64,000 nt of DNA from Solibacillus palustris (GTDB taxonomy: Bacteria > Bacillota > Bacilli > Bacillales_A > Planococcaceae). The notes under the pieces are model-generated. The model saw nothing but the letters and a program-made list of their open reading frames with translations. It was not told the DNA's origin and made no database searches. The stretch lies in assembly GCF_022549215.1 (NCBI RefSeq), contig NZ_JAKZFC010000004.1, positions 124,001-188,000 of the forward strand. The letters are read 5' to 3'. A program made the translations under genes and the position numbers. Positions 2,197 through 59,752 of the stretch are shown here, in pieces. The stretch's first letter is position 1; each line of letters starts with the position of its first letter.

Positions 2197-2904
2197 ATGA
2201 GTGTTCATATTAGTGCCAAACAAGGCGAAATCGCAGAAATCGTATTATTACCAGGAGATCCCCTACGTGCAAAGTATATTGCTGAAACGTTTTTAGAAGA
2301 CGTAGTACAATACAACGAAGTACGTAATATCTTAGGCTACACAGGTACTTACAAGGGCAAACGCATTTCAGTTCAAGGTACGGGAATGGGTGTACCTTCT
2401 ATTTCAATTTACGCTACAGAGCTTATGCAAGAATACGGTGTACAAAAATTAATCCGTGTTGGTACTTGTGGTGCGATTCAAAAGGATGTAAAGGTTCGTG
2501 ACGTAATCATCGCACAAACTTCATCTACTGACTCGAATTTAAACCGCGTAATTTTCGGCGGAAACATTGACTATGCACCAACTGCAGACTTTGATTTATT
2601 ATTAAAAGCTTACAACGCTGCAAAAGAAGCAGAATTAAATGTACGTGTAGGTAACATCTTCACGGCAGATATGTTCTATTCAGATGAAGAACAAAACGAA
2701 AAATTAGCACAATACGGAGTACTAGCTGTTGAGATGGAAACAGCTGCGCTATATACTCTTGCTGCAAAGTTTGGACGTAAAGCATTAACTGTTCTAACAG
2801 TATCTGACCACATCATTACAGGTGAGGTAACAACTTCTGAAGAACGTCAAACGACTTTCAATGACATGATGCTAATTGCACTAGAAGCGGCGATCCAAGA
2901 CTAG
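2197..2904 (+). CDS. deoD: Purine nucleoside phosphorylase, DeoD type
   Basis: Cytosolic hexameric phosphorylase that splits purine (deoxy)nucleosides into base and (deoxy)ribose 1-phosphate for salvage. At 235 residues it has the usual length. Phosphate-binding GDPLRAK is at 20-26, RVGTCGAI at 87-94, the ribose-binding VEMET at 178-182, and the catalytic aspartate in SDH at 203-205 (D204). ATG follows AAAAGAGG. A strong terminator follows. The last 40 codons and about 20 bp beyond are repeated at 4066-4211 with 4 mismatches in 146 bp, so the present 3' end may have been brought in by an integrating element. Confidence 0.97.
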
Positions 2905-3234: not shown

Positions 3235-3260
3235 CGTTCCTGTGAGTGTGTGAAGGGGAG

Positions 3261-3320
3261 CATAACAAAAGGACTTGCATATATGGAGTTTAATCATAAA
3301 CACAAGTCCTGCACTTATTA
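3261..3320. repeat. Hairpin element R1 (3' to DinB-like gene)
   Basis: Imperfect hairpin with outer arms AGGACTTG (3270-3277) and CAAGTCCT (3303-3310). It is shared with R2 (9451), R3 (9989) and, degenerately, R4 (8927). The outer arm ends 41 bp before the stop codon of the minus-strand gene. It may also act as that gene's terminator. Confidence 0.75.
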
Positions 3321-3350
3321 GGCTAGTAATATCTTTATTATAAGTCAATA

Positions 3351-3899
3351 TTAATGTAAATTATAATATTTTTTGCATAATAAAAAATGTTGTTTTTCAT
3401 GTATACCTAATATGTTAATACATTGAATTAAATTTGGATAATGTGCTATTGGGTCGGGGTAACGTATATGTCCAGCTACGTTATCGCTAATATTAGAAAG
3501 CATTTTTTCTAAATACCTAGTTTCAATATCTAGCTCGTTTACTAACCATTTAAATGAAATTTTCTCTTTAATATTCTTTGGTGGCACTAAAACAAAAGGT
3601 GCTTTCATAGGTTTATTATGTTTTTCTTTATATTCAGTAAATATATCGTCACTCTTAATGTTGTACGGCTTTCCACTTCTTATAGTAGCAATAGGCTTAG
3701 AAATCGGTAAATATGATTTGTTTAACTGTCTAAATAGTCTAATCATTAAATATAAATGATAATAGGTTTCTCCAAAAGACCACTTATCATCTTGAGGACG
3801 TTCCCATTCTTTATCTTTAAAATCTTTTAGCACATTAGCAAATTCTTCTCGTTGCTCATATATGATGGTGAAATGATTTTTCATGTAACTACTTTCCAT
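3351..3899 (-). CDS. DinB-superfamily protein
   Basis: A 182-residue protein of the DinB/YfiT four-helix-bundle superfamily, which includes metal-dependent thiol transferases and many members of unknown role. The candidate metal ligands are H48 (in GETYYHLYL) and the HEKQH motif at 167-171, matching the family's three-histidine pattern. An inner ATG (MKNHF, 15 nt further in) is an alternative start. The gene sits inside the 1286-bp interval between the two deoD 3' ends, on the opposite strand. It is flanked by R1 downstream and a conserved element E upstream, so it looks acquired. Substrate unknown. Confidence 0.75.
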   Translation of the reverse strand: MESSYMKNHFTIIYEQREEFANVLKDFKDKEWERPQDDKWSFGETYYHLYLMIRLFRQLNKSYLPISKPIATIRSGKPYNIKSDDIFTEYKEKHNKPMKAPFVLVPPKNIKEKISFKWLVNELDIETRYLEKMLSNISDNVAGHIRYPDPIAHYPNLIQCINILGIHEKQHFLLCKKYYNLH

Positions 3900-3934
3900 A
3901 ACGTCACCTCTGAATATTATCTAATGTTTATTTA

Positions 3935-3985
3935 TCATTAGTATAGTGTAACACATTTACAAATATTAGGGTATATCGGTGTGTA
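3935..3985. repeat. Conserved element E, copy 1 (5' to DinB-like gene)
   Basis: Contains TTAGTATAGTGTAACACATT followed by TACAAATATT and a GGTGTGTA tail. Copies lie at 10345-10396 and, more diverged, at 9389-9440, each upstream of a minus-strand gene whose 3' side carries an R hairpin. It may hold the promoter (TATACT on the minus strand) or be an element end. Confidence 0.6.
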
Positions 3986-4065
3986 TTACTAGTAAAAAAG
4001 ATTGACTGTTCCCACAGACGATACGACAACGCCTAATCCGCTCTTTATTAATCTACTGTCATATC

Positions 4066-4211
4066 AAGCATTAACTGTTCTAACAGTATCTGACCACATC
4101 ATTACAGGTGAGGTAACAACCTCTGAAGAACGTCAAACGACTTTCAATGACATGATGCTAATTGCACTAGAAGCGGCGATTCAAGACTAGCCATAGCAAA
4201 GGTTTGTGAGA
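4066..4211 (+). pseudogene. Orphan duplicate of the deoD 3' end
   Basis: This stretch repeats deoD codons 196-235, the stop and about 20 bp of flank (142 of 146 bp identical to 2780-2925). Upstream coding sequence is unrelated; an accidental in-frame start at 4002 gives a 62-codon frame whose first 22 residues are not DeoD. Lacking the phosphate and ribose sites, it cannot be a phosphorylase. It is best read as the displaced original 3' end left by an insertion at deoD, carrying its own terminator just downstream. A plain segmental duplication is the alternative. Confidence 0.9.
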
Positions 4212-4270
4212 CTCCAAATTTTACAAAGGGACTAAAAAGGGGTTTTAACCTTTGAAATGTACATTTGATG

Positions 4271-4305
4271 CCTACTAAACGAGCAATTGTTTAGTAGGTT
4301 TTTTT
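4271..4305 (+). terminator. Terminator behind the orphan deoD end
   Basis: Perfect 10-bp stem CCTACTAAAC/GTTTAGTAGG (4271-4280, 4289-4298) with an 8-nt loop and a run of seven T. The 60 bp that follow resemble the sequence after 6570-6600. Confidence 0.85.
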
Positions 4306-4778
4306 AGTATAATGAATCAAATAAAGAGGTCGCATTTTGCTTCTGTTCTATTGTGACATGAGAATAAGTGTTAAGGTTGTTTAAACCATAATTTATAAGC
4401 ATTGGAAAAGAACCAACTTTTAGTTGAAATTAAGTGTGTAGTAAAGCTCAACCGCTTCAATTTTTGAACAACAATCATAGCAAGCTCACAGAGCCATTTA
4501 ACGAGCCTAAGAGTTGATAGATTTGGCTTGGGCTTTTTTCAATGGACTTTAGGAAACTTACTTATTTCACAAAAAGGTAAAAATCCAACAATCACTATTT
4601 ACAACCCTTTAACCGAATCAATATTAAACAATATATGTGAGAAATATAATTTTTCACTCAATTCTGTTAAATTAAAGAAACATTGGATATTACCCCTATC
4701 TCAAATATTTGGTTTATGTTAACATATATCTGAATATCTAAAATTTAGGAGATATGAAAAGGAGTGTAATAATCAGAT
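4306..4778. other. Gap with repeat motif and a weak hairpin
   Basis: No convincing gene. It holds a 20-bp stretch, AAGCTCACAGAGCCATTTA at 4482-4500, repeated at about 6528-6546. It also holds a weak stem (GAGCC/GGCT) with a T-tract near 4503-4537, and a 64-codon open frame from TTG 4528 that starts inside that hairpin and lacks a ribosome binding site. AAGGAGTG at about 4759 serves the next gene. Confidence 0.4.
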
Positions 4779-6296
4779 ATGAAAAAGATATTGAAACCAT
4801 TGATTAGTGTTATTGCGATTGGTGCCATCTCTCTATCTGTCAATACAGATAAAAATATATCTGCTAATAATATTGCAAATACATGTGAGTATGATTCGGC
4901 ATCGAAAGGAAACCCTGATTATTCCACAATGAACTGTTTGTTAACCGAAACAGCATTGATTTATGATGTTCCTCCTGAAATTGTGAAGGCAATAGCGGAA
5001 GGTGAAAGTGGAAATTGGCGTCATTTCGATAAGAATGGTGAGGCGATTGTGACAGCTGATAATGGAATTGGCATTATGCAAATTACAAATCAAGCAGGCT
5101 ACAATCAAGATAGACTAAAAAGTGATCTTGTCTATAATATTCAAGCTGGTGTAGAGACTCTAGATAAAATGTTTAAGCGGAAGGATTTGCCTAGCATCAA
5201 CGGTGGGGAAAGAGATATACTGGAACATTGGTACTTCGCTGTCATGGCTTATAACGGTACTAAGCCAGTCAACAGTCCAATTGTCCAGGCAACTGGTGAA
5301 AGAAATGCAAATGCCTATCAAGAGAGAATTTTCAGGATTATCGAGGAAATGGGGCTAATTGACTTAACAGTGCTGCCATTTTCACGCGAACATTTTCAAT
5401 ATGACTCTAACAACAAGGAAAATATTAAATTTTCAGCGATGAACTATGATTTTGATTTACCAGTAAAAAAATCAAAGCACTTATTTGAAACAAATCAAAA
5501 AGTTAATACCACTACGAATGCAAATTTAAGGACAAGACCTACTACGGATAGTCCTTCTATGGGTACTTTACGTGAAGGTGAAACGATTACCATTACGGGT
5601 CCTTTTGAATATGATGAAGCGGCAACGAGGAAAAACCATTTTGTTTGGTATCCTGTGAAAAGAAGTGATGGGACAAAGGGGTATGTAGCATCAAGTTATT
5701 TAAACTACGCCGCTTCAACGCAAACACCTCCAGTTTCCACTACACCAGACTACTCAGCTTACGCTAAAAAGTTTGCTGACTTTAGTAGTACAGAATGGTG
5801 GGCAAATGATATGATTTGGGCAATCGAACGAGGTTTAATTAATGGTTATAGTGATGTATGGAATGCAAAAACAAAGAAATACGAAACACAATTACAACCG
5901 AACACACAATTAACTGAAGCTCACTTCCTAACAATCTTCTTCCGTTTCGCACAAAAAGATGAATTAGCAAATGTAAAAAACACAACGTCTTGGAACAAAA
6001 GTGGTTTATACAACATGGCGAAGAAATACAACATGCCTGTACTAGCAAATGAAGAATCCACAGCTTCTAAAGGTCTTGCGGATAAAGGCATTAGACGTGG
6101 TAAATTGGCACAACTGATGGCATCTTACTACTATGAGAAAACAGTAAGTGAAAACGAATCTATTCAATTTTTCATAGATAATGGGATTACCACAGCTACA
6201 TCAATCGGTGGCTATACTCCTGATAAAATTTTAACTCGTTCTGAAATATCAGCGTTTATTCAAAGGTATGAATCATTGGAGTTAAAGCAAAATTAA
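4779..6296 (+). CDS. Secreted lytic transglycosylase-like protein with SH3b and SLH-like domains
   Basis: A 505-residue exported protein likely to act on or bind the cell wall. A signal peptide (residues 1 to about 30) is followed by a lysozyme-like SLT domain (about 52-195) with the ESGN motif at 76-79, GIGIMQIT (96-103) and a later VMAYNG. Next are an SH3b domain (about 236-305, NANLRTRP start, GYVASSYLN end) and two or three SLH-like repeats (about 318-500; FADFSSTEWWANDMIWAIER, GYTPDKILTRSEISAFIQR), which may anchor it to secondary wall polymer. It lies alone between two deoD-flank-like copies, so it is probably accessory cargo. Substrate specificity is inferred from the fold only. Confidence 0.8.
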   Translation: MKKILKPLISVIAIGAISLSVNTDKNISANNIANTCEYDSASKGNPDYSTMNCLLTETALIYDVPPEIVKAIAEGESGNWRHFDKNGEAIVTADNGIGIMQITNQAGYNQDRLKSDLVYNIQAGVETLDKMFKRKDLPSINGGERDILEHWYFAVMAYNGTKPVNSPIVQATGERNANAYQERIFRIIEEMGLIDLTVLPFSREHFQYDSNNKENIKFSAMNYDFDLPVKKSKHLFETNQKVNTTTNANLRTRPTTDSPSMGTLREGETITITGPFEYDEAATRKNHFVWYPVKRSDGTKGYVASSYLNYAASTQTPPVSTTPDYSAYAKKFADFSSTEWWANDMIWAIERGLINGYSDVWNAKTKKYETQLQPNTQLTEAHFLTIFFRFAQKDELANVKNTTSWNKSGLYNMAKKYNMPVLANEESTASKGLADKGIRRGKLAQLMASYYYEKTVSENESIQFFIDNGITTATSIGGYTPDKILTRSEISAFIQRYESLELKQN

Positions 6297-6307
6297 ATGA
6301 ACTTAGA

Positions 6308-6390
6308 AAAGGGAGTGTCCGAGTTTTTCTGGGACACTCCCTTTGCGCCGAGGATGGTGAGAATTTATTCTGACCACCGCAGAAGCACCG
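6308..6390. repeat. Dispersed structured repeat, copy C (internally deleted)
   Basis: Starts with a palindrome (AAGGGAGTGTCC/GGGACACTCCCTT, 6308-6344), then CGCCGAGGATGG, then jumps to TATTCTGACCACCGC (6366-6380). The copy at 59612-59752 has both ends plus a nested hairpin between them, so this copy lost the middle. Without a T-tract, the palindrome is a poor classical terminator for the preceding gene. Confidence 0.75.
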
Positions 6391-6423
6391 CCTAAAGCGG
6401 ATTATTACTACACGAGGTTTGCA

Positions 6424-6462
6424 CTGTCCAAAAAGTTTTGACTTTTTGGACAGCCCCTTTTC
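6424..6462 (+). terminator. Strong hairpin, probable terminator
   Basis: A 13-bp perfect stem, CTGTCCAAAAAGT/ACTTTTTGGACAG (6424-6436, 6441-6453), is followed by CCCCTTTT. It probably ends the transcript of the secreted transglycosylase. The rest of the 6297-6802 gap holds repeat sequence (TTACGGCTGAGGC at about 6469, like 39645) and a degenerate deoD-flank copy at 6521-6660. Confidence 0.65.
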
Positions 6463-6520
6463 TGATTTTACGGCTGAGGCAATTCAATAAAAGCTAAGTT
6501 GAATTAGCTTACCGTAATAA

Positions 6521-6660
6521 TTGTTACAAGCTCACAGAGCCATTTATAGAGATTGTGAGCGTTAGACAGATTGTTACGAGCGATTATTTAGTGGGTTTTT
6601 TTAGTTAAAGGACTCGAATAATGAAGGTGGCATTTTCCTACTGCAACGGTTGCACAAGCT
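6521..6660 (+). repeat. Degenerate copy of the deoD 3' flank
   Basis: The segment from GAGCGATTATTTAGTGGG through the T-run and a later GGCATTTTCCTACTG aligns with 4281-4360 (GAGCAATTGTTTAGTAGG, T-run, CGCATTTTGCTTCTG). The AAGCTCACAGAGCCATTTA motif within it is also at 4482. Judged by eye; no alignment score was computed. Confidence 0.5.
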
Positions 6661-6745
6661 ATCAAGTATGTATACCAAACCTTATTATCATAAAAATACA
6701 TGTTTCATTTTTATTACATTCAGCTCTTATTTATCAAACAAAACT

Positions 6746-6770
6746 GTTTAATATGGAGAAGGAAGGGCAA
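6746..6770 (+). promoter_or_regulatory. Possible sigma-B promoter
   Basis: GTTTAA (6746-6751) and GGGCAA (6765-6770), separated by 13 bp, resemble the sigma-B pattern (GTTTAA, GGGTAW). The gene behind it is of the general-stress PNPOx type, which is sigma-B controlled in Bacillus subtilis. A single-site match is weak evidence. Confidence 0.3.
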
Positions 6771-6802
6771 GTTAATAGTGTAACTTGAAAGGATGGGGTG
6801 AA

Positions 6803-7222
6803 ATGACTTCTGTACGTGATGAAATACTAGAGGTATTAAATCGTGAAAAAATTGGTACTATGGCAACTGTTCGGAATGGAAAACCGTATTCTCGTTATAT
6901 GACATTTCAACATGAGGACTTCGTGTTATATACGGTAACAAGCAAACATTCTGAAAAAGTAGAAGAACTGCAACAAAATCCGTATACACATATTTTATAT
7001 GGCTACGAAAATAATGGATTTGGTGATGCTTATGTAGAAATCGAAGGCAAAGTGACAGCGTTTGAAGATGAGAGCATAAAAAACAAGTTAGCGGAAATTT
7101 TTTCGGGTATTTTTACCGGATCAAAAGATGAAATGGTAACGCTGAAAATTGAGCCGATTCGCATGCGATTGATGAATAAAAAAGGCGAGCCACCGAAAGA
7201 ATTAGAATTTACAGCTAAGTAG
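6803..7222 (+). CDS. Pyridoxamine 5'-phosphate oxidase-fold general stress protein
   Basis: A 139-residue single-domain protein of the PNPOx-like split-barrel family (general stress protein 26 / YdaG-like), whose members bind flavin and have uncertain substrates. The fold signature is visible: VLNREKIGTMATVRNGKPYS, then the YTVTSKHSEKVEEL strand-helix and a C-terminal TLKIEPIRMRLMN. I chose ATG 6803 because GGGGTG lies 7 nt upstream; an earlier TTG at 6785 would add six residues and lacks a site. It stands alone after an accessory gap. Confidence 0.8.
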   Translation: MTSVRDEILEVLNREKIGTMATVRNGKPYSRYMTFQHEDFVLYTVTSKHSEKVEELQQNPYTHILYGYENNGFGDAYVEIEGKVTAFEDESIKNKLAEIFSGIFTGSKDEMVTLKIEPIRMRLMNKKGEPPKELEFTAK

Positions 7223-7598
7223 TTTAAACGAATTAATTTATGCGATGCTTTGACATAGTGAGAGAGGTGCTTGCATAACTTTAACTATCTCAGTAAATTT
7301 TTCTATAGTTTCATCTATTATAAAACATGCTACATTGCTTTTAATAAGAGTCATTTTAACCTTAAACTGGGGAAATGCTTTTATTAGGAATGTCGTATGT
7401 TTTTTTCTGTTTCTGTCATACGTTTTGAGCATTATGTCCACCGTATGTTTAACAAATCTTACTGTCATTTAAAGTGTACGATGTAAAATATTGATTTGCT
7501 TGTGAACATACGTTTGGAATGTATGTTCTCTTTTTGTTTAAATTATGATAAATTTAAAGTGTAATATTTATTTTATAGGCAAGGAGAATTAAAGACGA
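7223..7598. other. Intergenic region upstream of the YdjM-like gene
   Basis: No supported gene. A 76-codon minus-strand frame (7238-7468) has no ribosome binding site. Several ACATACG/CGTATGT words cluster at about 7388, 7417, 7440, 7505 and 7521; the last two form the LexA-like palindrome listed separately. Confidence 0.4.
7503..7528 (+). promoter_or_regulatory. LexA-like box and 8-bp inverted repeat
   Basis: TGAACATACGTTTG (7503-7516) matches the Bacillus LexA/DinR pattern CGAAC-N4-GTTCG at all but two positions. It overlaps a perfect inverted repeat GAACATAC (7504-7511) / GTATGTTC (7521-7528). It is about 70 bp upstream of the YdjM-like start; ydjM of E. coli is LexA-controlled. Confidence 0.45.
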
Positions 7599-8087
7599 AT
7601 GCTAGGGAACACACACATCGTAGGAGGCATCACAGCAAGTCTTGCTTTTGCACAAATTTCAAATGAAAATCCCCTCATATTGCTAGGGGCAGGCATTGTC
7701 GGTGCACTATTGCCGGACATATGCCACGGTGGGAGTAAAATGGGGAGGACGTTTCCCATTAGTTCGAAAATTGTCAATAAACTTTTTGGGCATCGGTCTT
7801 TCACTCATAGTTTGCTCTTTTTATTTTGTATAGCGGTACTGATGAATGCTTTCGTACCCTATAAGGCATTCACAATAGGGCTGCTCTTAGGAATGGTTAG
7901 TCATTTTATTCTTGATATGGGAACGAGACAGGGAATTAAGTTGTTTTTTCCGATAAATTTTAAAGTACGTTTCCCCCTCACAATCAAAACGGGTGGCAAA
8001 GTGGAAAAGTATATTTTCGCTGGGCTATGTTTGTTATCGTTGTATTTTGGTTTTGAAATTATTATTGGAATTGTGAATATTACGTAA
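7599..8087 (+). CDS. YdjM-type membrane-bound metal-dependent hydrolase
   Basis: A 162-residue membrane protein resembling the YdjM/LexA-binding inner membrane family, annotated as metal-dependent hydrolases. It has the conserved HIVGGI start (H6), ALLPDICHGGSKMGR (about 46-60), HRSFTHSLLF (about 66-75) and GMVSHFILDMGTRQGIKLFFP (about 104-124), with four or five hydrophobic helices. The histidines and aspartates face where the family places its metal. ATG follows AAGGAG. A LexA-like box upstream suggests SOS control. Its in-cell substrate is unknown. Confidence 0.8.
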   Translation: MLGNTHIVGGITASLAFAQISNENPLILLGAGIVGALLPDICHGGSKMGRTFPISSKIVNKLFGHRSFTHSLLFLFCIAVLMNAFVPYKAFTIGLLLGMVSHFILDMGTRQGIKLFFPINFKVRFPLTIKTGGKVEKYIFAGLCLLSLYFGFEIIIGIVNIT

Positions 8088-8093
8088 AATCAA

Positions 8094-8128
8094 CCCTGCA
8101 TGTGGATAAATTCATGCAGGGATTTTTG
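8094..8128 (+). terminator. Terminator of the YdjM-like gene
   Basis: Stem CCCTGCATG/CATGCAGGG (8094-8102, 8113-8121) followed by ATTTTTGTT. Confidence 0.85.
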
Positions 8129-8221
8129 TTATTCAAAATTAAAAAATTCTTTACCAAGGTGTACTGCTAATATTGAATATAGCTACATTGGGTTGGAATA
8201 TTTGCCTAATGGGACATTAAT

Positions 8222-8255
8222 ATAAAAGGAGCTATAAAATTGCCTTTTTTAATGC
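8222..8255 (-). terminator. Probable terminator of the uridine-kinase-like gene
   Basis: Read on the minus strand, AAAAGG and CCTTTT arms enclose a short loop just past the stop and are followed by a T-rich stretch. The stem is short. Confidence 0.4.
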
Positions 8256-8257
8256 TT

Positions 8258-8872
8258 CTAACAGTAGTGCATGATTGTATGAGCAAGCTTAAAAGGATTT
8301 TGCATTTTTAAATAATAGTCTTCTGCTACCCAATATCTATTTTGGTATTTCATTAATCGTTCTTCTAAATTACCGATGTATGTGTCACGGTGAAGTACAC
8401 GCTCATATCTTACTTCTTTAGGGCAATCAAGGAAAATTATATAATCGTAAAATGCTTTCCATTCCTCTCTCAAAAGAAATATCCCCTCGATGATTACTAT
8501 GCTTTTAGGTGGTATTTGAATTGATTTGCTTATATGGATATCTTTTTCTTTGTCGTAAAACGGCAAGTGTAACTGCTTTTCGTTTTGATGAAGTTTTTTA
8601 TACAAACGTTCTTTTAGATAATTGGTATCCCATTGTAATTGATAATATTCAAACCACTCATCATGACCTGTGTTATATCTCATTTCTCTTTTAACAATAT
8701 GGTCGTCAATATGAAGAATCACTACATTTTCAATTTCATTTACAAGTTGGTTTACAATCGTAGTTTTTCCTGCACCACTTAGTCCGTCGATAGCTACAAT
8801 AAAAGGTCTATCTAAGTAATGCTTATTATATTCTTCTTCTATTTTTTGCTTTAAAGTACGGATCATTTCCAT
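8258..8872 (-). CDS. Uridine-kinase-like P-loop kinase
   Basis: A 204-residue nucleotide kinase of the uridine kinase/phosphoribulokinase superfamily. Walker A GLSGAGKT is at 30-37, an HIDDHIVKREMRYNTGHDEW segment after strand 2 carries the substrate-side acid residues, IIEGIFLL is the Walker-B-like strand and RVLHRD the lid arginine region. These bacterial homologues are often annotated uridine kinase without proof. The gene is monocistronic on the minus strand. Sequence past the lid (RYWVAEDYYLKMQNP) is typical of the family in Bacillales. Confidence 0.75.
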   Translation of the reverse strand: MEMIRTLKQKIEEEYNKHYLDRPFIVAIDGLSGAGKTTIVNQLVNEIENVVILHIDDHIVKREMRYNTGHDEWFEYYQLQWDTNYLKERLYKKLHQNEKQLHLPFYDKEKDIHISKSIQIPPKSIVIIEGIFLLREEWKAFYDYIIFLDCPKEVRYERVLHRDTYIGNLEERLMKYQNRYWVAEDYYLKMQNPFKLAHTIMHYC

Positions 8873-8926
8873 GTAAATTACCTTTCGTATATTGAATAAA
8901 TTTCTATAAATGTAGCATGCAGTAGG

Positions 8927-8985
8927 ACGAAATAAAAGGACTTGTGATTATGTATATGAAACAAAATCATAAGGCTATTTCTTAT
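8927..8985. repeat. Hairpin element R4 (degenerate)
   Basis: Begins GAAATAAAAGGACTTGTGAT and continues TATATGAAACAAAATCATAA, matching the left two thirds of R1-R3, but the closing AAGTCCT arm is lost. It lies 3' of the small membrane protein gene at 9020-9337. Confidence 0.5.
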
Positions 8986-9019
8986 CGAATAAAAGCTACC
9001 TATAATGGAATAGAGGTTT

Positions 9020-9337
9020 TTATAAATAGCTATTCTTTTTATTTCCATAAATTTCATAAGCGAAATATCCAATTAATAAGCCAATCCCTGAACTGAAACT
9101 TAATGTGGATAATAATGAAATTGAGAAAAACATGCTAAGAAGCAAGCCTACTGTACAACCAAAAAGCATTCCAAGTGGTATTAAACTGTCTAATAAATTT
9201 TGAGCTGCTTTTGATTTTTTCTTACCTAATTTCCCTTGCTTATGTTTATGTTCGAGCCTTTTAACAATGAAGATCGCAATGCCTCCATTGAATCCAAGGG
9301 GGAGTATAATACCTACAAGTTCCATGAAAAACTCCAA
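9020..9337 (-). CDS. Small membrane protein, unknown function
   Basis: A 105-residue protein with three hydrophobic segments (about 6-24, 50-68 and 72-95) and a basic cytoplasmic loop (KRLEHKHKQGKLGKKKSK). I do not recognise the family. The TTG at 9337 is preferred because AAAGGAG lies 8 nt upstream on the minus strand; the ATG at 9325 is an alternative. It is one of the minus-strand genes flanked by R-type (degenerate R4) and E-type (9389-9440) elements. Confidence 0.6.
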   Translation of the reverse strand: MEFFMELVGIILPLGFNGGIAIFIVKRLEHKHKQGKLGKKKSKAAQNLLDSLIPLGMLFGCTVGLLLSMFFSISLLSTLSFSSGIGLLIGYFAYEIYGNKKNSYL

Positions 9338-9388
9338 GCTGTAATCTCCTTTCGTTTACATCCTATTACATTAATTACGTAATATTCA

Positions 9389-9440
9389 GTTATTTAGTGA
9401 AGTGTATCATAATTTTATTTTATAGCGCGGTATGTGTGTA
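9389..9440. repeat. Conserved element E, copy 2 (diverged)
   Basis: TTTAGTGAAGTGTATCATAA and a GGTATGTGTGTA tail align with 3935-3985 and 10345-10396. Its right edge abuts R2, so one cassette ends where the next begins. Confidence 0.5.
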
Positions 9441-9450
9441 TATGAGATGC

Positions 9451-9510
9451 AGAACAAAAGGACTTACATACATGAAAAAAATTCATACATGCAAGTCCTA
9501 TTTTAAATAA
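9451..9510. repeat. Hairpin element R2
   Basis: Arms AGGACTT (9459-9465) and AAGTCCT (9493-9499), with near-complementary CATACATGA/TCATACATG inside. The outer arm ends 41 bp before the stop codon of the minus-strand gene at 9540. Confidence 0.75.
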
Positions 9511-9539
9511 TCATTAATACCGATCCTTCAATAAGCCAT

Positions 9540-10022
9540 TTATTTCTTATGCACTTTTACATAAACACTTCCAAATAATCTATCTCCAATGTAAGCATCT
9601 AACCTCCACATTCCACTTTTAGACAACATCATATTTGTTGGAATGTGATGATTTGCTCCATTATTAGGGCTAAGAAAAGAAATTTCAACTTTTGGAACAA
9701 TTATTATTTCCTCGTTACTGTTTTCATGAGTTCCTAAAACTTCAAAGTTACCAGTCAACTCGTCTTCTTTTCCCCAAAAATGCCACATGTACTTTTGTAT
9801 TTTATTTGGATAGAATCTACTTTCTTCATTATCATCGTAAAGAAAGCCTAAATGCCCTTCTTCTCCAATCATTGTATAACCATCTGATTTAAAAAGGGGA
9901 CTTTCATGCCATTTGTTTTGAAATAAGCAATTGAGATTTGACTTGATGGATAGTTGGTCACATGAAACGCTCTCAGGTCGGTTTGAGAACATAACAAAAG
10001 GACTTTCATATATGAAACCCAA
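9540..10022 (-). pseudogene. DUF4871-like protein, probably 5'-truncated
   Basis: The open frame gives 160 residues. From about residue 36 (WHESPLFKSDGYTMIGEEG) to the end (SGMWRLDAYIGDRLFGSV) it resembles, from memory, the secreted DUF4871 family of Bacillales. The first 10 or so codons are translated from hairpin R3, and no signal peptide or lipobox is present although the family is usually exported. The ORF start at 10022 lies inside R3 and has no ribosome binding site. The simplest reading is that R3 and the next cassette replaced the true 5' end. If expressed, the product would stay in the cytosol. Confidence 0.6.
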
Positions 10023-10050
10023 TCATACACGCAAGTCCTATTCTTATTAA
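9989..10050. repeat. Hairpin element R3
   Basis: Starts CATAACAAAAGGACTTTCAT; the closing arm AAGTCCT ends at 10039, 40 bp before the stop codon of the minus-strand gene at 10079. It is almost identical in layout to R1. It overlaps the apparent 5' end of the truncated DUF4871-like gene. Confidence 0.75.
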
Positions 10051-10078
10051 ACAAAATTGTACGTTATTTATATAGAAA

Positions 10079-10282
10079 CTACTTTTTCTCTTTTAATAGT
10101 GAAATAATCTTTTCATTTTGTTCTATTAACATATCGAGTTTTTTTCCAATCTCATTAGCATTATTAGTTCTTGCTGAAGAATTTATTAGTAACTTTTTTA
10201 TAAAGTGAGTAAAAGAAATAAAAAATAAAATAATAAGCCCAAATACAGCGATTATGGGGATTAGTTGTAGAATTGCTTCCAT
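10079..10282 (-). CDS. Small single-pass membrane protein, DUF4083-like
   Basis: A 67-residue protein with an N-terminal membrane helix (about 5-28) and a cytoplasmic amphipathic or coiled-coil tail (IGKKLDMLIEQNEKIISLLKEKK). The arrangement and tail fit the DUF4083 family of small Bacillales proteins, function unknown. ATG follows GAGGAGGG with good spacing. The gene is flanked by R3 downstream and element E upstream. Confidence 0.7.
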   Translation of the reverse strand: MEAILQLIPIIAVFGLIILFFISFTHFIKKLLINSSARTNNANEIGKKLDMLIEQNEKIISLLKEKK

Positions 10283-10344
10283 TGTATTCCCTCCTCATGA
10301 TTCATATTAACCTGCATAATTGATTTAATGACTGAGTAATCAAT

Positions 10345-10396
10345 CGTTTAGTTCAGTGTAACATATTTCCAAATATTGACGGTAGGTGAATGTGTA
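10345..10396. repeat. Conserved element E, copy 3
   Basis: TTTAGTTCAGTGTAACATAT followed by TTCCAAATATT and GAATGTGTA; the closest match to copy 1 at 3935. The remainder of the 10283-10583 gap shows no gene. Confidence 0.6.
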
Positions 10397-10583
10397 AGGC
10401 AAATGGGGCAGGATAGATGTGCGAAATGTTTCTAGCTTAAATAGAAATGGTCACATTACTAAGGTAAGGGCTAGAAAGTATTGTTGGAACTGAACAATCA
10501 GATTTAAGAATGAAGGGGATTCAGAAACCTTTATTGAATTAGTATTACAGGAATACATATTCTTAAAAAAGGATGAGACTCTT

Positions 10584-11875: not shown

Positions 11876-11977
11876 TTTGTGTCAAAGAGAAGTGTATATG
11901 AATAGTTACTTGGATAATGATAATTCTTAAGAATTTAGTTTCCATTGGAGATACTTGTTTAGTAGGAATGTTGCTAT

Positions 11978-12100
11978 TCAAGTGTAGTCATAGCAAGGGT
12001 TTAAGCATTACATAATTTCAAAAGGGACATAAACTTATTTTATTGACCGTCCAAGCGCTCTAGACAAGAATTTGTTAAGTGTGCTTTTTTATGAATGGAA
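11978..12100 (+). repeat. Degenerate deoD-flank-like copy
   Basis: TAGTCATAGCAAGGGTTT at 11982 and TTTCAAAAGGGACATAAA further on align with the sequence after the orphan deoD end (TAGCCATAGCAAAGGTTT, TTTTACAAAGGGACTAAA). A degenerate GTTAAGTGTGCTTTTTT near 12075 mirrors the deoD terminator. It has no coding part of deoD. It occupies most of the 11876-12251 gap, where no gene is seen. Confidence 0.5.
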
Positions 12101-16780: not shown

Positions 16781-17680
16781 ATGAAAAAATCAGTATTAAC
16801 ATTTTGTACAGTATTACTTTTAGCAACGCAAGCACCCGTTGCAAATGCAGAGGGGGGCAATACTGAAGCTAAAGCGAAATACTTCCAATCGGCTTCTGAA
16901 TATCAATTGCAAATTAATGCAGCTAATTTTAAAATTCAATGGCCATTCGAAAATATTAAAATCGGGGATATAGAAACGATCATCAAGACATTCCCAAAAC
17001 CAGAAGTTAAACCAGTGCCAAAGCCAGAAACAAAACCGGAAGTAAAACCAGTACCGAAACCGGAAACAAAACCAGAAGTTAAACCAGTGCCAAAGCCAGA
17101 AACAAAACCGGAAGTAAAACCAGTACCGAAACCGGAAACAAAGCCAGAAGTAAAACCAGTACCGAAACCGGAAACAAAACCGGAAGTAAAACCAGTACCA
17201 AAACCGGAAACAAAACCAGAGCAAAAACCAACAACGCCACCAAATCAAGTGACAGACTCAGAAAAACCAAATCAGCCAGGTAATAATACAAATGATGCTG
17301 ATGTTGCTGCGATCGAAAAGCAAGTAGTTGAATTAACGAATAAAGAACGTGCGAAATTTGGTTTAGCAGCACTTGAAATGGATCAACCATTAATGGCTGC
17401 TGCTCGTGAAAAATCTCAAGATATGAAAAATAACAATTACTTCTCTCATACTTCGCCAACATTCGGTAGTCCATTCGATCGTATGAAAGCGTTAGGTATT
17501 TCTTATAAATCAGCTGGTGAAAATATTGCAAAAGGTCAAACAAGTGCGGCACAAGTTGTCGAAGCATGGATGAACTCAGAAGGCCACCGAGCTAATATTT
17601 TAAATAAAGACTTTACGCATATTGGTGTTGGTTATGTGAAGTCAGGTAATATTTGGACACAACAATTTATTAAAAAATAA
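16781..17680 (+). CDS. Secreted CAP/SCP-domain protein, YkwD-like
   Basis: A 299-residue exported protein. A signal peptide ends near ANA (22), followed by a short unique region, a Pro/Lys/Glu-rich spacer of six identical 12-residue units ([12 protein letters not shown]) and a C-terminal CAP domain (about 178-299). CAP motifs are clear: [22 protein letters not shown] and [12 protein letters not shown]. Bacillus homologues (YkwD, YlbC) are secreted or spore-associated with unclear activity. The spacer is likely to span or bind the wall. ATG 16781 is preferred: GAAAGGAG precedes it. Confidence 0.88.
17003..17218 (+). repeat. Six tandem 36-bp coding repeats
   Basis: Six in-frame copies of a 36-bp unit encode [12 protein letters not shown]. 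Units differ only at synonymous sites (CCAGTGCCAAAGCC or CCAGTACCGAAACC), in an alternating order suggesting growth by a 72-bp step. A site prone to length change by slippage. Confidence 0.95.
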
Positions 17681-18094: not shown

Positions 18095-19171
18095 ATGAAA
18101 GCAAAATCAATTATTTTAACCGGTGGGGGTACGGCTGGGCACGTCTCGTTAAATGAAGCGATTATCCCATCATTAATCGATGCAGACTATGATGTGCATT
18201 ATATCGGATCACATGATGGCATCGAAAAAGAGTTAATCGGCAACGCATTCCCTGAGTTACCGTATCATAGTATTTCAAGTGGGAAATTACGTCGTTACTT
18301 TTCGATACAAAATTTTACGGATCCATTTAAAGTGTTAGTCGGCATAGGGCAAGCATTTTCAACTATTAAAAAGGTAAAGCCAAGCGTTATTTTTTCTAAA
18401 GGCGGCTTTGTTTCAGTACCGGTAGTGATTGCTGCAAAATTAGCAAATATTCCCGTTGTTGTTCATGAATCAGATGTAACGCCCGGATTAGCAAATAAAA
18501 TTGCCCTGCCATTTGCATCACATATTTTTACGGTATTCAAGGAAACGGTCAAACATTTGCCAAGTGACAAAGCGACTTGTACCGGCTCGATTATTCGCCA
18601 GCAGTTATTTGAAGGCAATCGCGAACAAGGACTTGCCTGCTGCGACTTTACAACAGATAAAAAAGTGCTACTAATAATGGGCGGAAGCTTAGGGTCTGTT
18701 GTTGTAAACGATGCTGTGCGAGAGAACCTAACGAAATTACGTGAAAAATATCAAATTATCCATTTATGTGGTAAAGGGAATATAGATTCATCTTTGCTAA
18801 ATTTAGAGGGCTATCGACAGTTTGAATATGTAACAGATGAATTACCTGATTTGCTATATGCAGCCGATTTCATTGTTTCACGTGCGGGTTCGAATTCAAT
18901 TTTTGAATTTTTAGCGCTTCATAAACCGATGCTATTAATTCCATTATCAGCTGCAAAAAGTCGTGGTGACCAAATTTTAAACGCTCGTTTATTTAAGCAG
19001 CAGGGCTTTGCGCATGTACTTGATGAAGATACGATGACAAAAGAGTCATTTTACAGGGCGGTCGAAACACTAGCAGCTAATGCCGATGAAATGATCGACA
19101 AAATGCTAGATGTAGAACAGCCAAAGACACCGTCAGAAATGGTTTCATTAATCACACAATACGAAAAATAA
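18095..19171 (+). CDS. murG: MurG-like UDP-GlcNAc:undecaprenyl-PP-MurNAc-pentapeptide GlcNAc transferase
   Basis: A 358-residue GT-B glycosyltransferase of the MurG family, which makes lipid II from lipid I at the inner face of the membrane. GGGTAGHV (10-17) is the first glycine loop (usually GGGTGGH); FSKGGFVSVP, HESDVTPGLANK and MGGSLGS match MurG motifs, and SRAGSNSIFEFLALHKPMLLIP is the UDP-GlcNAc site. It is not in a division/cell-wall cluster, so it may be a second MurG paralogue as in some bacilli. ATG follows TTAGGAG. Confidence 0.85.
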   Translation: MKAKSIILTGGGTAGHVSLNEAIIPSLIDADYDVHYIGSHDGIEKELIGNAFPELPYHSISSGKLRRYFSIQNFTDPFKVLVGIGQAFSTIKKVKPSVIFSKGGFVSVPVVIAAKLANIPVVVHESDVTPGLANKIALPFASHIFTVFKETVKHLPSDKATCTGSIIRQQLFEGNREQGLACCDFTTDKKVLLIMGGSLGSVVVNDAVRENLTKLREKYQIIHLCGKGNIDSSLLNLEGYRQFEYVTDELPDLLYAADFIVSRAGSNSIFEFLALHKPMLLIPLSAAKSRGDQILNARLFKQQGFAHVLDEDTMTKESFYRAVETLAANADEMIDKMLDVEQPKTPSEMVSLITQYEK

Positions 19172-31196: not shown

Positions 31197-31234
31197 AAAC
31201 ATATCAATTTCATATCAAAACCTCACAAACTCGT

Positions 31235-37064: not shown

Positions 37065-37170
37065 GGCTTAGGCCAACACGATGTTGGTCATCAGGCGTTG
37101 CCGCACGATGCGGCGTTCTTAGCCTGAGTTCCCCTATTCAGTCGGGGTTTGAACCCCACTGAATCAAGTT
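37065..37170. repeat. Dispersed structured repeat, copy A
   Basis: Three hairpins in a row: CCAACA-CGA-TGTTGG (37073-37087); outer TCAGGC/GCCTGA (37091-37096, 37122-37127) enclosing GCCGCA-CGA-TGCGGC (37100-37114); and ATTCAGT/ACTGAAT (37136-37142, 37158-37164) enclosing GGGGTT/AACCCC. The nested pair matches copy B at 59686-59722 with compensatory changes; the third matches 39532-39573. Confidence 0.85.
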
Positions 37171-59611: not shown

Positions 59612-59752
59612 AAGGGAGTGTCCGAGTAGTATTTCTGGGACACTCCCTTTACGCCGAGGATGGAGTCCACCACGAAGCTGGTCATGAATGCGTTGTCACA
59701 CGATGTGACGATTTTAGCATTCGTTCCTATTCTGACCACCGCGAAAAGCAGC
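59612..59752. repeat. Dispersed structured repeat, copy B
   Basis: Left palindrome AAGGGAGTGTCC/GGACACTCCCTT (59612-59649), CGCCGAGGATGG, a decayed CCACCACGAAGCTGG hairpin, then outer GAATGC/GCATTC (59686-59691, 59717-59722) around GTCACA-CGA-TGTGAC (59695-59709), and right end TATTCTGACCACCGC (59728-59742). It lies between convergent genes and ends 13 bp before the aminotransferase stop. Confidence 0.85.

Follow-up and report, generated by a model that had tools for sequence, protein, structure and literature searches.

The 64,000-nucleotide (nt) stretch of Solibacillus palustris analysed here (assembly GCF_022549215.1, contig NZ_JAKZFC010000004.1, positions 124,001 to 188,000 of the forward strand), hereafter the window, carries small minus-strand genes that are followed by a shared hairpin, R, and in part preceded by a shared promoter-like block, E (Table 1), and that we read below as probable relics of a gene-cassette system of Bacilli. 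G000 denotes the window's own genome, G001 another genome of the same species, G007 one of another species and G013 a genus-mate. The stems of the three intact R copies end at 3310, 9499 and 10039 and the neighbouring stop codons begin at 3351, 9540 and 10079, with gaps of 40, 40 and 39 nt; the fixed distance past the stop codon proposed in a first-pass annotation of the sequence (41, 41 and 40 nt, with one more counted) is thus borne out by three intact copies and one worn one. R forms a repeat family (D3, copies at 3261, 9450 and 9990) with 67-81% identity to its reference copy over 64 nt, and a strict R pattern finds three copies in the 4-Mb draft genome, every one within the R region of the window. 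The genes near R are mutually unrelated and comprise DinB_2, uridine-kinase-like, small membrane protein, DUF4871-like (below cut-off) and DUF4083 genes.

The upstream element is less uniform. E1 and E3 match at 87% over 30 nt (3938-3967 and 10348-10377, repeat D12), so that two of the three E copies first annotated are clear; the third, at 9389, is weak, its G001 copy gives no match to the E consensus even with up to 11 mismatches allowed, and we do not count it as confirmed. Where one unit's E had been seen to abut the next unit's R (9440/9451), the abutment is real, but G001 holds about 60 base pairs (bp) more between R and E, and it is therefore probably a local deletion and secondary, judging from this alignment. 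The adjacent DUF4871-like gene encodes 163 amino acids (aa) in G001 and has lost its start in the window, which accounts for its missing E, and the two losses together mark the window array as worn. The counterpart of the worn R hairpin scores 33.2 bits with the R model in G001. We found no R of its own in the window for the uridine-kinase-like gene, whose homologue in G072 (locus L101) has R 3' of the gene at a gap of 43 bp; the 105-aa membrane protein family has R behind the gene in G001, G063 and G070 as well. In G013 most of 8134-10480 is absent and a different small gene stands in its place. All three intact R copies fold more stably in the gene sense than in the opposite sense, and R may well act also as a terminator, and E as a promoter.

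Table 1. Positions of the elements and genes discussed, in window coordinates.
Feature	Position	Strand	Evidence or remark
deoD, whose 3' end is the integration site of the island	2197..2904	+	PF01048
R hairpin 1, 3' of the DinB-like gene	3257..3312	-	74.6 bits with the R model; repeat D3
DinB_2-superfamily gene, 182 aa, unit 1	3351..3899	-	PF12867, 1.2e-10
E1, promoter-like block upstream of unit 1	3937..3968	-	2/32 mismatches to E consensus; repeat D12
Partial deoD 3'-end copy closing the DinB segment	4066..4211	+	97% identical; repeat D2; junction common to G001 and G007
X-part remnant of an R element	4453..4520	-	X profile match; repeat D10
Uridine-kinase-like P-loop gene, 204 aa	8258..8872	-	PF00485, 3.4e-11
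Worn R hairpin after the 105-aa gene	8924..8979	-	22.4 bits, E-value 0.049
Small membrane protein gene, 105 aa	9020..9337	-	open reading frame
E2, weak	9389..9420	-	leader partly similar to G001 and G070 copies
R hairpin 2	9446..9501	-	69.6 bits
DUF4871-like gene, start truncated relative to G001	9540..9944	-	PF16167, 0.0034, below cut-off
R hairpin 3	9986..10041	-	74.2 bits
P1 palindrome remnant between DUF4083 gene and R3	10044..10072	-	9/29 mismatches
DUF4083 small membrane protein gene, 67 aa	10079..10282	-	PF13314, 6.1e-12
E3, promoter-like block	10347..10378	-	6/32 mismatches to E consensus; repeat D12
Decayed deoD 3'-end copy, 30 nt	11973..12002	+	repeat D4; 83%

To place these units among relatives, we used a covariance model of 14 R copies, the three intact window copies included. 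It matches 81 of 261 family genomes at an E-value of 0.01, in 12 of 19 genera and with up to 21 rows per genome, both strands counted. At 1e-4, in an order-level search that again covered 261 genomes and whose listed rows all came from the window's family, it matches 50. In a class-level sample of 398 Bacilli genomes R is found at 1e-6 in four, all from the same family, and an exact pattern gives nine stretches in named carriers, which comprise seven Lysinibacillus records together with Sporosarcina limicola and Bacillus ndiopicus. The R loci studied were those of the best matches and of clusters: the best 150 of 172 model matches (52 sources) were aligned and reduced to 89 places, with open reading frames (ORFs) of at least 50 codons called mechanically and most genomes being one per species. 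At 78 of the 89 places the nearest ORF upstream of R lies on the same strand, the genes no further than 160 bp before R, 68 in all, represent 55 families, and several genomes hold R copies in same-strand clusters spaced at about 1 kb. Homology runs past R for up to about 200 bp in a variably truncated part, X, for an R-X total of about 290 bp. The same gene can recur with its flanks at different loci (at 90% between two loci of G184, and at five loci, one of which holds a fragment, for a 98-aa gene), the similarity beginning near the left end of E and ending soon after R. Matches to the E consensus occur in 19 of the 68 R units, a rate that is not independent since the consensus was derived from the same units.

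Loci also vary between genomes. Downstream of an M42 peptidase gene next to rplT, among 32 genomes of genus g8, the R-element profile is found in G066 (several copies), G063, G061, G059, G064, G044 and G055 and gives no match in the other 25; G068 has a weak R-model match of 28.6 bits; near an IscA-type gene, R-model matches at an E-value of 0.05 occur in 6 of 10 regions, by scan only. The proposal of mobile units around unrelated genes in a Gram-positive chromosome, with loci that differ from genome to genome, is upheld by these comparisons, and R is neither confined to one genome nor a plain terminator without variable genes beside it. In G066 the M42 peptidase 3' end is duplicated almost identically over 225 bp (L094, 4506-4730 and 8401-8625) and the duplicate brackets the array, in the same pattern as that of the deoD 3' end described below. 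A fixed integration site at the M42 peptidase gene is not supported, the duplicates in other genomes ending at different points, and we rejected spread of R by phages, no match to the R consensus being found in 50,697 phage records. Within X, R elements repeatedly show what resembles the remnant of an antisense ORF, LTVTAGDTKGLNRFNFELAYNNNRSKLLEAFNEP (for example L100 5080-5260, and L111), without a Pfam or PHROG match and without a recognisable full-length gene in 32 genomes of one genus.

Where relatives have kept the units better, a palindrome, P2, closes E and a second one, P1, stands before R. Both are 26-27 bp long, with arms TTSAACTAA / TTAGTTGAA around an asymmetric centre, CGGGTGCT or CGGGGCAGG, a shape that, as far as sequence can tell, is that of a Xer/dif-type site with a direction. 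Several E blocks continue into the P2-like CAACTAACGGAGCAGGATAG, and the end of E and the stretch before R have the half-site TTCAACTAACGG in common, which at up to two mismatches lies near the gene start in 14 of the 68 R units and between stop codon and R in 14 (0.4 and 0.05 in shuffled sets). A 112-nt R consensus has matches in five plasmid records from other Bacillaceae, of which one covers nt 2-62 and the remaining four the initial 42 nt, which hold the palindrome; a 34-nt palindrome matches 17 plasmid records at an E-value of 0.01; and P1 at up to three mismatches occurs in 32 of the 398 sampled Bacilli genomes and 23 of 146 genera, with none for a reversed-pattern control. G090 holds 79 copies and the window's own genome 26.

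The fetched P regions are arrays of small genes, many with the order gene, P1, terminator-like hairpin, P2, next gene; six of the sampled genera and plasmids of Peribacillus have such arrays. For statistics we chose 24 of the fetched loci, which had themselves been picked for P and which contain 273 sites at six mismatches. There, P1 is preceded within 150 bp by the end of a same-strand gene at 89 of 121 sites (opposite strand 3, none 29), P2 is followed within 150 bp by the start of one at 94 of 152 (opposite 9, none 49), and adjacent sites share direction in 244 of 249 neighbouring pairs. The gap from P1 to P2 measures 23-38 bp in about 53 of the 84 listed cases, for a P1-hairpin-P2 length of about 90 bp. 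As single-stranded DNA, three such stretches, of which one was folded on both strands, have better folds than their shuffles (z -2.4 to -7.8), as folding of palindromes would give, and at z -2.4 six of 200 shuffles were equally good. No known RNA family was found to cover R or P, in the window at gathering scores or in L224, L236 and L100 at an E-value of 1, the best Rfam match over these three loci (E-value 0.36) belonging to an unrelated family and the coverage of attC by Rfam being unchecked. In an own-genome P array (L231, 3995-5886), two overlapping frames resemble parts of the PADLOC candidate defence protein PDC-S49, apparently a broken gene.

A 279-aa tyrosine recombinase adjoins the P array of G090. 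It scores 224.2 bits with the XerA-like model NF040815 (cut-off 220) and 95.9 bits with the integron integrase model TIGR02249, far below its cut-off of 265. The first-pass annotation saw no integrase in the sequence; a candidate lies outside the window in the same genome: a 279-aa gene at G000:C12:7271-8110, free of internal stops and matching PF00589 at 5.2e-40 (Pfam scan only), which sits between P1 and P2 and is 98.0% identical to its G007 counterpart from P to P over 1005 bp. Recombinase genes with P sites on both sides also occur in G090 (two copies) and G146. At a threshold of 1e-60 the recombinase is present in 28 of 398 genomes, and P1 is found in 11 of these 28 against 21 of the 370 others (Fisher p 1.3e-6, relatedness ignored); in all six genomes with at least five P1 copies it is present, at no less than 76% identity. 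A P-like core follows the recombinase stop codon within 150 bp at 8 of 11 loci at or above 76% identity, against 5 of 148 control windows inside the gene, and by eye TAACGGGCAG or TAAAGGGCAG follows it at 6 of 10 loci of 42-52% identity. The link between recombinase and P is thus one of association, consistent with an enzyme that would act on P. At L096, L062, L075, L078, L101 and L110, further tyrosine recombinase genes, whole or broken, are found no more than a few kb from R units, and serine resolvases are present in two islands that also hold R. On the Peribacillus plasmid NZ_CP084540 (L236, 8111-11716) a P array runs up to a DUF6262 gene and two tyrosine recombinase genes, which we take to be a Tn554-like arrangement and which constitute a second candidate mover.

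Units move as units. One occurs twice in the window's own genome, the copies being 97.7% identical over 436 bp that run from the left end of P2 to just past the hairpin that follows P1; between G000 and G007, genomes whose deoD stretch is 79.7% identical, a histidine-phosphatase unit reaches 98.8% identity over 852 bp; a DinB unit is 99.5% identical to G001 and yet lies at another locus there; and a GNAT unit is present at two G001 loci. Several units are 97-99.5% identical between genomes with a backbone of 80-95% identity. We collected 19 shared segments (at least 250 bp and 93% identity), two being the chromosomal flanks of one locus, and obtained 33 usable ends. For 22 of them a P is no more than 15 bp away in one genome or both, where about 11% would be expected (binomial p 4e-14); for 16 this holds in both genomes, with 5.6% of the sequence lying so near to P (p 5e-12). 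At L223 the two genomes of the species have the same left and right half-sites, with several cassettes between them in G000 and one GNAT cassette in G001. While the mobility first ascribed to these units is supported, E and R are not the likeliest ends, the exchange point being probably the palindrome pair P2/P1 just inside them.

Within the 64-kb window neither P1 nor P2 is found at the usual thresholds. The sequence before R3 is 9/29 mismatches from P1 (2 of 2000 random windows come as close; the G001 R3 copy has 7) and that at the worn R 10/29, while R1 and R2, with 13 and 15, are no better than much of the background. As P1 is eroded here and intact P sites persist elsewhere in G000, we read the window's units as apparent relics of a system that looks more intact in other parts of their own genome, and these copies have probably ceased to be mobile.

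Their location reflects a distinct layer of mobility. The 146-nt 3'-end stretch of deoD (2780-2925) is repeated at 4066-4211, and besides the window genome partial deoD 3' ends occur downstream of deoD, a gene present in 16 of the 16 genus genomes searched, in G001, G007 and G011, with a worn one in G003. In the window, G001 and G007 the copy starts at the same codon and has the same element-side sequence, CTGTCATRTC, before AAGCATTA, and in G007 a full-length tyrosine integrase gene (PF00589, 9e-27) lies directly beside deoD. The shared start and junction, together with this integrase, identify deoD as a hotspot of recurrent site-specific integration, with the units having arrived in accreted islands; this layer is ordinary and separate from E, R and P. 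A broken relative of the G007 integrase adjoins the R array of L100. The deoD island further contains a secreted-looking transglycosylase/SH3 gene (window 4779-6296), with counterparts at L045 3083-4414, L058 15736-17097, L059 2103-3446 and L099 3634-5136, whose DNA similarity to G001, G007 and G011 ends at about 5728, the C-terminal part being different and in the window having S-layer homology.

We consider it likely that these elements belong to an integron-like gene-cassette system of Bacilli working by site-specific recombination, of which the window would hold a decayed, lineage-specific form in a deoD 3'-end island. On balance we also lean towards the broader proposal that Bacilli own an independent counterpart of integrons, in which a dedicated XerA-like recombinase, itself capable of moving as a cassette, shuffles genes between dif-like palindromes on chromosomes and plasmids. 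The basic unit would be P2, gene, P1 and terminator-like hairpin, with units joined head to tail in same-strand arrays. The recombinase would recombine one P with another, and a break in or near the palindrome would lead to unit exchange; its gene could itself sit between P sites and travel as a cassette. Lineages would add parts of their own: in Planococcaceae (Lysinibacillus and relatives) the hairpin after P1 would be R, a promoter-like E would precede P2, and the order would become E-P2-gene-P1-R. The window would then represent old copies of this kind, with P1 and P2 mostly eroded, in an island accreted at the deoD 3' end through another integrase. Genome comparison shows this unit anatomy, its distribution, unit-wise transfer with breaks at P, and the co-occurrence and adjacency of the recombinase.

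Several observations weigh against this reading. The Fisher test on the recombinase/P1 association takes no account of relatedness, 17 of the 28 recombinase genomes are without P1 at three mismatches, and 21 of the 32 P1 genomes, each with one or two copies, are without the recombinase at 1e-60. A P-like core follows the stop codon in only 1 of 19 more distant recombinase loci, and among the class-sample members of the R-rich genus g8, G071 has a 66% homologue with an internal stop. For 11 of the 33 segment ends no P lies within 15 bp, several shared segments are copies of one unit, which makes their ends partly dependent on one another, and at L277 an incomplete second copy of the gene for the recombinase ends away from P. 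For the R form, the P half-site is found on both sides in only 5 of 68 units, P1 is recognisable in the window only at R3 and the worn R, and duplicates are similar from the left of E to just past R and not only from P to P. This wider similarity may be family-level similarity, and does not prove exchange at P, although R-form units would exchange there on the reading that we favour.

Homologous recombination could produce much of this pattern if the P1-hairpin-P2 (about 90 bp) and R-X (about 290 bp) stretches were mere repeats between which, after DNA uptake, the intervening gene is swapped with no dedicated enzyme. Repeats of 90-290 bp are long enough for such a process, units are common to different species, and the accretion with direct repeats of 146-225 bp at deoD and the M42 peptidase gene is in keeping with it. 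We nonetheless hold it to be unlikely, given that breaks cluster at a 26-bp palindrome with a conserved asymmetric centre, that at one locus the variable part lies between single P half-sites, and that a recombinase family co-occurs with and adjoins P.

Still less probable, in our view, is that R and E are ordinary signals, an intrinsic terminator and a promoter conserved in one family, around orphan genes moved by general gene transfer. Their placement at 3' and 5' ends and the more stable folding of the three intact R copies in the gene sense are what this would predict; against it, conservation extends far past the stem into X, unrelated genes have both ends in common, one unit recurs at several loci with sharp limits, and the P half-site lies on both sides of the gene. 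Pair counts in the R alignment are, moreover, no better than in shuffles (87.7% of cells pair, against 87.2%), with no covariation beyond them, and selection for an R RNA stem as such is therefore not supported. To non-autonomous transposition with passenger genes, through IS200/IS605-like hairpin ends or an element like repetitive extragenic palindromes (REP) or miniature inverted-repeat transposable elements (MITE), we assign very little weight: hairpins at both ends and a TnpB-family gene near one plasmid copy speak for it, and the head-to-tail, same-direction arrays, the breaks at the palindrome and the Xer-type recombinase beside it speak against it.

Should the cassette system we favour be real, a second such system with its own enzyme and sites would mean that the integron design arose more than once; it would help to explain how small genes turn over in relatives of Bacillus, and its arrays would form a catalogue of transferable genes, many without known function. 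No description of the arrays, P or R was found by title or abstract start in the open-licence PubMed Central (PMC) literature, preprints and most subscription journals lying outside that search; a 13-base piece of P occurs in seven papers. Elsewhere in the window we noted two Bacillaceae-1 RNAs (37073-37138 and 59667-59733, minus strand), a lysine riboswitch at 31231, a borderline S414 match at 18631, and repeats with a 12-bp period in the coding region of a secreted-looking protein (16959-17282), slightly different in length in G001.

Among known systems, the deoD layer resembles the integration of e14 and phage 21 in icd, a case of islands entering at gene 3' ends: the deoD 3' end is replaced, the old end is pushed outward, and a tyrosine integrase lies beside the gene in G007. 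The deoD layer differs in carrying cassettes, and as a separate layer it does not explain E, R or P. For these the closest likeness is to integrons, with small, mostly uncharacterised genes in same-direction arrays, a putative structured site after each gene, a tyrosine recombinase gene that faces against the array and adjoins a site, and unit-wise horizontal transfer. In attC sites the partner motif has the consensus GTTRRRY. The P core, AACTAAC/GTTAGTT, is one position off the attC consensus RYYYAAC as given in PMC8632094. PMC9024848 describes integrons as very rare in Firmicutes, for reasons termed unclear, and counts one complete integron only in all of that phylum. An integron as such was rejected on the model scores of the recombinase, which is Xer-type and not IntI; the recombinase here lies inside the array, each gene has a short palindromic site on either side, and the hosts are Bacilli. 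Another comparison is with the dif (pdif) modules of Acinetobacter plasmids, which use the host XerC/XerD and are bounded by sites of opposite orientation. These modules likewise hold genes between short Xer-type sites, and, according to PMC6449649, occur in plasmids and chromosomes and are thought to move between them. P sites, in contrast, point in one direction, in long arrays to which a separate recombinase is linked; they have two inverted arms around a short asymmetric centre in 26-27 bp, with breaks there, and may be comparable to the Xer-type sites of about 28 bp that bound pdif modules.

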